Shown here piece by piece: positions 1 to 45,918 of a DNA stretch of 47,258 nucleotides (positions are counted from its first letter, which is position 1; every line of letters starts with the position of its first letter). Both the position numbers and the translations under genes were made by a program. This stretch comes from Carboxylicivirga marina (lineage in GTDB: Bacteria > Bacteroidota > Bacteroidia > Bacteroidales > Marinilabiliaceae): assembly GCF_016612505.1 (NCBI RefSeq), contig NZ_JAENRR010000038.1, positions 1 through 47,258 of the forward strand, given 5' to 3'. Under the pieces are notes generated by a model. It saw only the letters and a list, made by a program, of their open reading frames with translations. It made no database searches and had not been told where the DNA came from.

Positions 1-140
1 TTATGAGGCAGCTTGGAAGAGTATGGCTTAAGAATTGATTTGGTGGGGGTTGGTGGTGGAAAGTTTTTTAGATATTTTCGAAAGATAGACTATCGATGGT
101 GACCTTAGACCTTCTAAATAATATAGGAGGCAATTATTAA

Positions 141-204
141 CTGACATTTCCCATGTCTATTAGGCAGCACTTGAAAGCTGCCTAATAGACATGGGAAATG
201 TCAG
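141..204. repeat. Perfect 28-bp inverted repeat (hairpin) after the PPIase gene
   Basis: The left arm (141-168, starting CTGACATTTCCC) and right arm (177-204) are perfect reverse complements around an 8-nt loop, ACTTGAAA. The hairpin begins 4 bases beyond the stop codon of the minus-strand PPIase gene, so it would form at the 3' end of that operon's transcript. There is no clear U-tract, so it is not a textbook intrinsic terminator. It may be an mRNA-stabilising structure, a terminator of another kind or a small palindromic mobile element. Confidence 0.85.
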
Positions 205-208
205 ATTA

Positions 209-793
209 TTATTGTACTTCCTCAGCGTTCAACCTTCTTATACTTTCAATCTTCACCATTGCATCAAGCATTTGGTTGGTGTTCTCTAAAACATGTATCT
301 TTTTAACAACATCTATCCCATGAACAACCCGTCCAAAGGCTGCAAACCCCTTACCATCTGCATTTCTCTTTCCTCCATAATCTAATTCAGGTTGGCTACC
401 TATACATATAAAGAACTCTGAAGAAGCCGAGCCCGGCTCTAATCGAGCCATACTAATTGTTCCATCCAAATGTTTGATTCCAGTTACATTTGTGGGTTCG
501 TGTTGAATTGGCTGCAACTGCTCGATAGTCTCATCAACAAACAGGCCTCCCTGAATAACTTCAATCTTAACTGGGCTATTATTTTGATTTGAAAGTGTAA
601 CAACCCGATAAAAGATCGCTGAATCGTAACGTTTTTCATCGACATATTTTAGAAAGTTACACGCCGTTATCGGGGCTCGATCCTCATAAATCTCACAAAT
701 TACATCGCCTTTAGTTGTTTTTATTTCTACCCGAGGATTAGAACAACAGGATACAAAAGTTATCACAACCGATATTATCAATATATATTTCAT
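209..793 (-). CDS. Cyclophilin-type peptidyl-prolyl cis-trans isomerase lipoprotein
   Basis: The predicted product has 194 residues. It has a lipoprotein signal (hydrophobic stretch then FVSC, Cys16) followed by a cyclophilin domain: VEIKTTKGDV at the start, FYRVV carrying the catalytic Arg, IQGG, a SASSEFFICIG core strand and FAAFGRVVHGIDVV near the end. Members catalyse proline isomerisation in protein folding; here probably in the periplasm, membrane-anchored. I chose the ATG at 793 rather than 862 because it places the signal peptide at the N-terminus and overlaps the upstream gene's stop as ATGA, indicating translational coupling. It is the last gene of the sigma-factor operon, consistent with an envelope-folding role (inference). 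Confidence 0.9.
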   Translation of the reverse strand: MKYILIISVVITFVSCCSNPRVEIKTTKGDVICEIYEDRAPITACNFLKYVDEKRYDSAIFYRVVTLSNQNNSPVKIEVIQGGLFVDETIEQLQPIQHEPTNVTGIKHLDGTISMARLEPGSASSEFFICIGSQPELDYGGKRNADGKGFAAFGRVVHGIDVVKKIHVLENTNQMLDAMVKIESIRRLNAEEVQ

Positions 794-23189: not shown

Positions 23190-23222
23190 ATGGTAATATA
23201 AAGAGTGTTAAAACAGTAGCAA

Positions 23223-23770
23223 GTAGTTGCAAGCAAAAGCAATCGTCAGATTGGTTTCAGGCATTGTCAGATAGGTATCAATGAATGTAACAGGTTTTTA
23301 AGTGATTGTCAGATGGGTAATCGCTAATGTCAGATGGGCATTATTGGATGTTAATGTGGTTTTAAGCGTTGTAACTGGCGTTTTAACCATTGTAAGTGGT
23401 GATTTATTTATTGTGAGACACGATATTTCGAGTGTTACATGGAGTTATGGTGATGTCAGACACGATTTAACGACTGTCAGCAACGATTTTGCAACTGTAG
23501 ATTGTGATTCAGAGACTGCAACATTGGATTCAGCCATGTGATGGATGGATTTATCGTACGTCAGCAACATTTTTTTTGTGTGTAAGCACGTATATTACAA
23601 CTGTCAATGTCAATTATTTGACCTTCACTCGCTATTTAGTCATTGTTTCATATCATTTGGAGGATGTAGCATTAATAATGGTTAATGTATTTTTGATATT
23701 AGAGCAAAGTCGACCTACTCATTTAAGTGTAATTGAAGGTCGGAAGACTGTAAGGACCTAACAAGCGATG
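23223..23770. repeat. Degenerate tandem array with 21-bp period, about 25 units (array 1)
   Basis: Units begin TGT, often TGTCAGATGGGT or TGTCAGACACGA. The G of this TGT falls at 23245, 23266, 23287, 23308, 23329, 23350, 23371, 23392, 23413, 23434, 23455, 23476, 23497 and 23518 (the last unit reads TGC): 13 intervals of exactly 21 bp. The phase continues with small slips to about 23750. Unit sequences diverge strongly. On the plus strand one frame reads as seven-residue repeats of the kind IVRWVIA, NVRWALL, IVRHDIS, DVRHDLT, but stops and slips interrupt it and no credible start exists. It fills the gap between the RRM promoter and the NUDIX gene. It is not a CRISPR array. Confidence 0.8.
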
Positions 23771-23879
23771 ATTGCAACGCGAGCCTATTGAAAAATTTTA
23801 TTCATAGCAGAACGACTTTAGGCTTGGTCGTGGTCAATCATTCAAAAAATAAACTTACTTTTAAATAAACCTTCACAAC

Positions 23880-44920: not shown

Positions 44921-45562
44921 ATGAACAAATCTCACGACCGCTACTGGCGGATGTTTAATAATGTGGAGACGGTGCTGGATGAAAACAGTGCTGTCTGGAC
45001 ACCGGTTCCGATTATAACGGAACAGAAGAACCTGCTGGATGAACTCATCCAGCGCATTGAAGGGGTATATGGCAATAACCATGCTGATGCAAACGCCATT
45101 ACCCGTAATAAAGCCAACATTAAAGAAGCCTTGATGATGAAAGCCTCTATTCTGGCAGCTGCGCTTTATGTATATGGCGACATGACAAACAATGAGGTGC
45201 TAAAGAGCTTTAAAAAGGTAAGTAAGTGGAACCTTGATAATATGAAGGAAACAGAGTTGGTATCAACGACTCAGTCCATTATACAAGCGGCTAACGAAAA
45301 CCGGGAAGCTTTAGCGCCTTTTGCAGTGGCAGAGCCGCAAATTACTGAGCTTGAAACCTCACTGGATGATTTCAGCGCATTGATTGGCCAGGCGCGTAAC
45401 GTGCGTAACAATGTATACGCCAACATCAAAGAGGCCGACCAGCTATTTGACGAAGCCAATAACTTGCTTCGTAACCGAATGGATAAAGTGATGCGTCTGT
45501 TTGAAATTAACAACCCTAAGTTTTTCGATCTATACACGCGTGCCCGTGTGATAGTCAACTAA
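44921..45562 (+). CDS. All-helical protein of unknown function, GC-richer than neighbours
   Basis: The protein has 213 residues, no signal peptide or membrane segment, and is predicted to be almost entirely helical (for example LLDELIQRIEGVYGNN, EADQLFDEANNLLRNRMDKV). It ends PKFFDLYTRARVIVN; similar about 200-residue proteins ending in ARxIVD are, to my memory, common in Bacteroidota with unknown function. Codons and base composition are visibly more GC-rich than in nearby genes, suggesting transfer or strong expression. A good terminator and then the second 21-bp array follow. Confidence 0.75.
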   Translation: MNKSHDRYWRMFNNVETVLDENSAVWTPVPIITEQKNLLDELIQRIEGVYGNNHADANAITRNKANIKEALMMKASILAAALYVYGDMTNNEVLKSFKKVSKWNLDNMKETELVSTTQSIIQAANENREALAPFAVAEPQITELETSLDDFSALIGQARNVRNNVYANIKEADQLFDEANNLLRNRMDKVMRLFEINNPKFFDLYTRARVIVN

Positions 45563-45590: not shown

Positions 45591-45625
45591 AAACACCCAA
45601 AGACGATGCTCTGCGGGTGTTTTTT
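45591..45625 (+). terminator. Rho-independent terminator after the helical protein gene
   Basis: AAACACCC (45591-45598) pairs with GGGTGTTT (45615-45622) with a 16-nt loop, and the T-run extends to 45625. Confidence 0.75.
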
Positions 45626-45630
45626 AGTGC

Positions 45631-45861
45631 ACTATTACACAAGTAACTTTACGGATTAATCAATTAAAACGCCGGAACGTCCAACATTTATTACGGGGTA
45701 AACAAAACACTTGACGGATTAAACCCCGCGAGTACCAGGTTGTACAATCAACAAGGCGGACTAGCCACCAAAGTATACGGATTGAACATTACTTATAGCG
45801 GATCGTACAATCAACCTAACGGGTTGGCTGATTGAACTGACGGGTTGGCAGTTGCTTTTCG
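45631..45861. repeat. Degenerate tandem array with 21-bp period, 10-11 units (array 2)
   Basis: Units begin CGG, most often CGGATT or CGGGTT. The first base falls at 45652, 45673, 45694, 45715, 45736, 45757, 45778, 45799, 45820 and 45841: nine intervals of exactly 21 bp; 45631 is a probable weaker unit. In one plus-strand frame the units read as seven-residue repeats with G-L first (for example GLNPAST, GLATKVY, GLNITYS), but stop codons interrupt it in units one and nine and there is no start. The array lies between a terminator and the next lipoprotein gene. Confidence 0.8.
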
Positions 45862-45918
45862 TGTTGTGCTTTTTTTTACCACCTTTATACGGTACGATTA
45901 TTCAATGACACCATCTTT

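Follow-up and report, generated by a model that had tools for sequence, protein, structure and literature searches.

The question raised by this locus is what kind of element could hold degenerate sequence units in strict 21-bp register while the units themselves diverge. The window, by which we mean the whole 47,258-nucleotide stretch of the Carboxylicivirga marina genome that was analysed (contig NZ_JAENRR010000038.1), contains such a repeat, array 1, between an RRM gene and a NUDIX gene. A preliminary description placed about 25 units there over nearly 550 bp, with 13 successive intervals of exactly 21 bp. Lag-21 self-identity over 23223-23770 was 0.452, whereas 500 dinucleotide shuffles averaged 0.272 (sd 0.019; z 9.6), so a 21-bp peak above the shuffled control was indeed present. 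The next-ranking lags were 42, 84, 63, 105 and 126, lags 20 and 22 were at background, and the maximum reached by any lag from 5 to 129 over this stretch in 200 shuffles was 0.353. The strict part of the array (23244-23537, + strand), delimited by lag identity and unit layout, comprises 14 head-to-tail degenerate units of the type TGTnAG..GG.GTTTTA (lag-21 identity 0.553, z 10.6 against base shuffles), whose starts run from 23244 to 23517 and bear out the 13 exact intervals. The rest is a weak 3' tail (23538-23770, + strand; lag-21 identity 0.344, z 2.3), in which TGT starts from 23581 on stand one base out of register and which possibly consists of decayed units. About 14 of the 25 units described are therefore firm, the remainder being a decayed or doubtful tail. 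The units are degenerate throughout and include no constant repeat, which rules out a CRISPR array, as had been held, and no Rfam match at the gathering score was found in the window.

Comparison with congeners bore on how this array came to lie where it does. The NUDIX gene was present in 12 of 13 congeners, each time with the RRM gene upstream, and in none of these 12 was there a 21-bp array (lag identity >= 0.42) between the two genes. The gap measures 886 bp in C. marina versus 302-352 bp in the six congeners that were aligned; judged from coordinates, four other congeners have a gap of about 510 bp, L291 has one of about 1.3 kb, and in L293, whose NUDIX gene is broken, the gap is about 320 bp. 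Because the gap is array-free in 12 of 12 congeners, we consider array 1 to be an insertion. Relative to the six aligned congeners, the inserted stretch extends approximately from 23213 to 23840 (strand not assigned), with edges uncertain by tens of bases, and neither a target-site duplication nor defined ends could be delimited for it. Thus, where alignment to an intact coding gene in relatives had been envisaged, the congeners have an array-free site instead. Among relatives, array 1 DNA itself had no match in the 59 genomes searched besides its own.

Within its own genome, the closest kin of array 1 is a stretch of contig C148 (77 percent identity over 192 bp), an array that lies near a fragment of a gene family described below, the gene being cut at the contig end. 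The first seven of nine units match in order between the two arrays, and across all nine there are 45 mismatches in 189 positions and no indels. These mismatches fell in 15 of 90 positions in columns that are conserved in a separate array on contig C162, which resembles array 1 in consensus only, versus 30 of 99 elsewhere (p = 0.04), and mismatch was negatively correlated with C162 column conservation (rank correlation -0.51, p = 0.019). As mismatches are rarer in the conserved columns, array 1 seems to have stayed under selection for its motif, for which this sequence comparison provides modest evidence. Identical or near-identical stretches of 28-76 bp were also observed near three contig ends (window 138-213, L036:4823-4904 and L038:1-76); they are probably copies of a dispersed repeat that broke the assembly, and it is there that the C148 gene is cut.

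A search of the genome for six TGT triplets spaced by 21 bp, in which at most two mismatches were allowed, yielded more arrays with other consensus sequences on contigs C77, C111, C127, C135, C162 and C175. When laid out, all of these had a period of 21, not 20 or 22. Several of the two-mismatch matches (for example on C120, C126, C195 and C200) look like chance, and the reversed TGT pattern was uninformative as a control, since the pattern is symmetric and returns the same counts. The C77 and C127 arrays lie within a duplicated block, more than 1 kb long, which includes a 225-codon gene. Near the ends of the C77, C127 and C111 arrays (L032:4155-4191, L034:4238-4295 and L033:4094-4136) we observed a REP-like palindrome of the CTTCCCCAGGGAAG type, which may be a separate repeat or an edge mark of the element. 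The end of the C175 array (L038:615-656) carries an inverted copy of the core, CTACGGAAG, and a hairpin with the last unit is possible.

A homology search with the product of the C77/C127 block gene identified a second such locus in the window itself. The gene at 44921-45562 (+ strand) encodes a 213-aa protein, predicted to be all-helical, of a family that we designate family A. About 75 bp downstream of it lies array 2, with about 10 units of 21 bp and the core ACGGATTnnnCAA, placed by unit models and lag identity at about 45644-45853 (widest extent 45620-45912, + strand; lag-21 identity 0.455, z 6.5). Gene and array together represent the complete form of the element. A gene of a linked family was thus present within about 1 kb of array 2 and absent for array 1, beside which own-genome searches gave no family-A match, leaving it an orphan flanked by the RRM and NUDIX genes. 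That such arrays normally adjoin a gene for a helical protein was the point that escaped the preliminary description. In the own-genome search, family-A genes adjoined the arrays on C77, C127 and C148 (the fragment) as well as array 2. On C127 there is a further copy, in whose array 21-bp units alternate to give a 42-bp version; the copy on C15 is truncated at a contig end, and more distant relatives lie beside the arrays on C175 (E = 4e-5) and C135 (by alignment only). Two additional arrays have no adjoining family gene: one, at C111:146 kb, has a consensus like that of C77, and the other is at C162:7 kb.

The association of gene and array was evaluated in relatives with a family-A profile built from five own-genome members, which gave 71 matches in 27 of 60 genomes (own included). 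We examined 60 relative loci that had been picked by the protein profile and not by an array, leaving out the own genome. Period 21 ranked first among periods 13-39 in 52 of the 60, and unit models likewise detected an array, 7-30 units long, in 52 loci, 48 of these within 600 bp of the gene. The arrays were upstream of the gene in 46 of 52 cases (median 226 bp) and downstream in six. With a fixed cut-off, 49 loci had period 21 within 1.2 kb of the gene and one locus had it at a greater distance; periods 14, 28 and 35, which have lags or a 7-bp component in common with 21, reached this cut-off in 10-11 loci each, and every other period in at most one. In the six loci whose proteins have the highest identity to the window protein (L210, L246, L213, L211, L217 and L218), the array is downstream, as it is for the window gene, at a distance of 1.9 kb in L217. 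Eight of the 60 relative loci and two of the eight own-genome loci had no array at the cut-off; these ten comprise three gene fragments, two contig ends, L160 with its 42-bp version, and otherwise real misses. In L160 (3265-3516) two unit types alternate to form a 42-bp higher-order repeat of 21-bp units, and a similar alternation (TGTAAG, TGCGAG) was observed in L037.

The consensus sequence of the arrays varies from locus to locus, and its likeness tracks the similarity of the neighbouring proteins when read on the gene strand (Mantel rho 0.309 for 52 arrays, with 0 of 500 permutations as high) and not on the opposite strand (rho 0.024). This correlation may reflect plain co-inheritance of the whole locus.

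Database searches placed family A in no characterized group. Nothing exceeded the cut-off in Pfam or NCBIfam and nothing was found in PADLOC; a single weak PHROG match (E = 0.003) is to an entry with no function given. The window protein had no match in plasmids, and in viral contigs 85 pattern matches led to no confirmed family-A member. Solved structures gave no match by sequence, and a Foldseek comparison of two models of modest quality (pLDDT 78.9 with 2 sequences and 81.9 with 7) gave none in the PDB at E <= 0.001, so that a known DNA-binding fold was not recognized. One member that was found via its array, L092, carries an additional C-terminal part, and three further members have about the same length. 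The proteins are mostly acidic, with a median pI of 5.45 and a pI above 8 in only 7 of 61, which is not suggestive of DNA binding and speaks against direct contact with the array.

The genomic neighbourhoods did not supply a partner. None of the four proteins encoded around the window module had a match beside any of the 60 relative family-A loci, and among 401 neighbouring ORFs there was no specific common partner gene: the largest clusters occurred in 7 and 6 of 68 loci, at 0.04-5.3 kb, and the members scanned were histidine kinases and S9 peptidases. This lack of common neighbours fits a self-contained movable unit.

Arrays of the same kind accompany other protein families. The gene products beside the C175 and C135 arrays weakly matched the NCBIfam model NF052641, 'PQLLE family protein', whereas the window family-A protein did not match it. 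Of 40 genomes searched, C. marina among them, 25 had PQLLE genes, often in several copies; C. marina has six. Among 40 PQLLE loci, of which two places are represented twice, period 21 was first by rank in 29. An array was present at the cut-off for 36 of 44 gene rows, in 30 upstream by 38-303 bp; tandem genes share an array in five cases, so that the 36 rows correspond to about 31 distinct arrays, and the lowest of them (unit identity below 0.42) may be chance. Two of the six own-genome PQLLE genes (L315 and L318) had no array. An even draw of 198 genomes from the phylum contained a match to the profile in 9 (own included), most below the curated cut-off, which was exceeded in only 3, again including C. 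marina. Period 21 ranked first in 9 of 10 PQLLE loci from the other genomes of this draw, although one, L338, is AT-rich and might be simple sequence. PQLLE loci thus mostly have the same kind of upstream 21-bp array as family A, but the name exists in a model library only, with no stated function.

Family B (about 114-168 residues), which was met in a pattern scan of named genomes among the matches listed, lies beside arrays in Nostocales cyanobacteria, a Desulfobulbaceae bacterium and two other loci. Its proteins are basic in 6 of 7 cases. The family-B profile gave 3-18 matches in each of nine genomes that had been selected for arrays, and an array was found in 28 of 30 loci examined, upstream by 66-370 bp (L271 shares the array of L256); minus the 11 loci holding the pattern by which the genomes were found, the count was 17 of 19. 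Two more families, C with 4 loci and D with 2, were met only in loci picked for having an array, and a search of 148 phylum genomes with the family C profile was fruitless. Profile comparison did not establish homology among families A, B, C and D. Heptamer arrays (lag-7 identity of 0.5 or more) were left out before counting. Such heptanucleotide arrays (L047, L053, L057, L061 and others) were observed in diverse bacteria and match the 21-bp pattern because 21 is a multiple of 7.

What, then, are the arrays? The preliminary description had left two readings of the 21-bp spacing, sites presenting the same face to a protein or a decayed heptad-repeat gene. A coding sequence, decayed or living, would account for a period of seven codons, and 20 of 49 indel-free family-A arrays do have a stop-free frame on at least one strand. 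The other 29 are closed in all six frames, and the stop codons on the two strands (848 and 880) are as many as expected when columns are independent (856 and 876); likewise, 34 PQLLE rows contained 953 stops against 973 expected, 24 of them being closed in all six frames. These counts contradict the coding interpretation, to which we give very little credence, and the heptad-gene half of the earlier proposal falls away. The array is a real, non-coding DNA array of 21-bp units.

The other half of that proposal gained support, since the pitch is kept under sequence drift and conservation within the unit follows the helical turn. Indels were found at only 9 of 756 unit junctions in family A, 2 of 295 in PQLLE and 3 of 253 in family B, counts that are lower bounds, as the unit models allow shifts of 1-2 bases only and larger breaks end an array. 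We evaluated conservation along the unit in 57 family-A arrays, including six own-genome ones (all but one of which had been located by the array itself), after dropping L195b, which is the same array as L195, and L221, a near copy of L220. The power at a 10.5-bp period was 0.281 versus 0.10 (sd 0.011) for permuted columns, a permutation that destroys any smoothness along the unit; one cycle per unit was also enriched (0.177), below two cycles. In 36 PQLLE rows the corresponding power was 0.201 versus 0.10 (sd 0.015, a null spread that is somewhat too small given the shared arrays). The mean profile has a main block of six or seven conserved bases and a weaker block one turn away. The combination of fixed pitch and 10.5-bp modulation is the pattern expected from a protein on one face of B-DNA. 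Units showed no dyad symmetry (mean z 0.28), which rules out palindromic dimer sites and points to direct monomer sites. Direct half-site repeats within the unit were also rejected, as self-similarity at shifts of 10 and 11 (0.054) was matched by several other shifts. There was no 10.5-bp modulation of A/T content, and phased A-tract curvature is thus not the common denominator.

It would be quite improbable for these arrays to be neutral slippage minisatellites that lie near such genes by chance. Some family-B arrays do resemble young slippage products in that their units are nearly identical (in many, unit likeness is 0.8-0.97), but chance slippage would account neither for one exact period across families nor for the link to particular genes. 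Family-A units, at an identity of about 0.4-0.8 and partly conserved throughout, also have few indels at 40-60 percent unit identity, whereas alignments of the left, array-free portion of the RRM-NUDIX gap, over 208-218 bp at an identity of 0.63-0.70, contain 3-5 gap runs each. A transcribed array working as RNA, in the manner of TIGR-Tas guide arrays or type III toxin-antitoxin repeats, is improbable too, if a little less so. A single small gene adjoining the array, degenerate units with two better conserved blocks, and folding z-scores below -2 in 7 of 57 arrays on the gene strand and 5 of 57 on the other would suit it. The mean folding z was only -0.38 and -0.13, respectively (first 210 bp per array, 30 shuffles each), there are no constant repeats with free spacers, and the 10.5-bp modulation speaks against a role as RNA, as does a period of 21 in every family when set against the 36-nt TIGR RNAs given in PMC12045711. 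A type III toxin-antitoxin system was rejected on the unremarkable average folding, together with the finding of no toxin family in Pfam above the cut-off or in PADLOC.

More serious, if still unlikely, is that the array serves as a platform for a host nucleoid-associated or regulatory protein, the helical protein acting on the resulting complex or merely being controlled by it. The acidity of family A is consistent with this, a mostly upstream position suits a promoter-linked control region, and orphan arrays without a gene exist. On the other hand, a single host protein would not explain a consensus that differs at each locus and follows the similarity of the neighbouring protein.

Among known systems, the arrays resemble sites of replication and partition. 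Iteron replicons combine direct repeats of 17-22 bp with a Rep protein, a monomeric binder of these repeats that initiates replication, and parC-ParR complexes are built on partition sites. By analogy, direct asymmetric repeats of about two turns, one adjoining protein gene and a system-specific consensus would be shared with these; the 21-bp arrays differ in being chromosomal, in having many copies per genome and more units, and in being much more degenerate. Members of families A, B, C and D that were scanned had no match to a Rep or ParR family in Pfam or NCBIfam, and the 401 neighbouring ORFs included no ParM or TubZ type motor gene as a specific partner. According to the published account (PMC12045711), TIGR-Tas arrays have edge and loop repeats of 8-12 nt, 9-nt spacers, 36-nt RNAs and Nop-domain proteins, and occur mostly in phages and parasitic bacteria. 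They are alike in being tandem arrays beside one gene with two better conserved blocks per unit, and unlike in that here the period is 21, there are no free spacers and no viral relative of family A was found; on this description, the 21-bp period and the absence of free 9-nt spacers rule out a TIGR guide array. A Nop domain was found neither in Pfam above the cut-off nor by Foldseek at E <= 0.001 with a model of modest quality. TAACTGA heptamer direct repeats are intergenic, occur in Cyanobacteria and Bacteroidetes among others, and have no known role (MacGregor 2015, PMC4679880); they consist of one fixed 7-bp word with no partner gene family, and a post-transcriptional role has been proposed. 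Those intergenic direct repeats are similar insofar as 21 is three times 7, but the arrays retained here have a lag-7 identity of 0.16-0.42 versus a lag-21 identity of mostly 0.5-0.8. TIGR-Tas and the TAACTGA heptamers are the nearest systems that we met in print, and neither fits. Among the PubMed Central papers listed in literature searches, we found no description of such 21-bp arrays. The arrays and their protein families lie outside any described system known to us; PQLLE has no more than a name, and the working analogy that comes closest is an old one.

We slightly favor the interpretation that array 1 is the orphan DNA half of an undescribed two-part element, consisting of a 21-bp array and a nearby gene for a small helical protein, with protein binding along one face of the DNA. 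In such an element, the array would be read as double-stranded DNA, and each unit would offer exactly two helical turns to one protein contacting one face, mainly over 6-7 bp and more weakly at a distance of one turn. Proteins bound in this way would line up head to tail in a polar filament. The first candidate for the array-coating protein would be the product of the neighbouring gene, which may also act on orphan arrays of like consensus. It is conceivable that such a filament regulates the gene that encodes it and serves to mark or tether the locus, in the way of iteron-Rep or parC-ParR complexes, and that the element is a small mobile module spreading within the chromosome, a notion derived from one array-free site and from missing shared synteny.

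More broadly, and with confidence falling a little short of even, we suggest that several phyla carry an undescribed nucleoprotein element in which a fast-changing 21-bp array is paired with a matching filament-building helical protein, with many distinct copies per genome that spread and whose orphans are addressable in trans. The module is common, as family A occurs in 27 of the 60 genomes searched among C. marina and its relatives and PQLLE in 25 of the 40 so searched, yet it has no assigned function, which represents a gap in annotation. The arrays predict a testable DNA ligand for each protein of these families, and should every protein be specific for its own array, the families would constitute a large natural set of protein-DNA specificity pairs.
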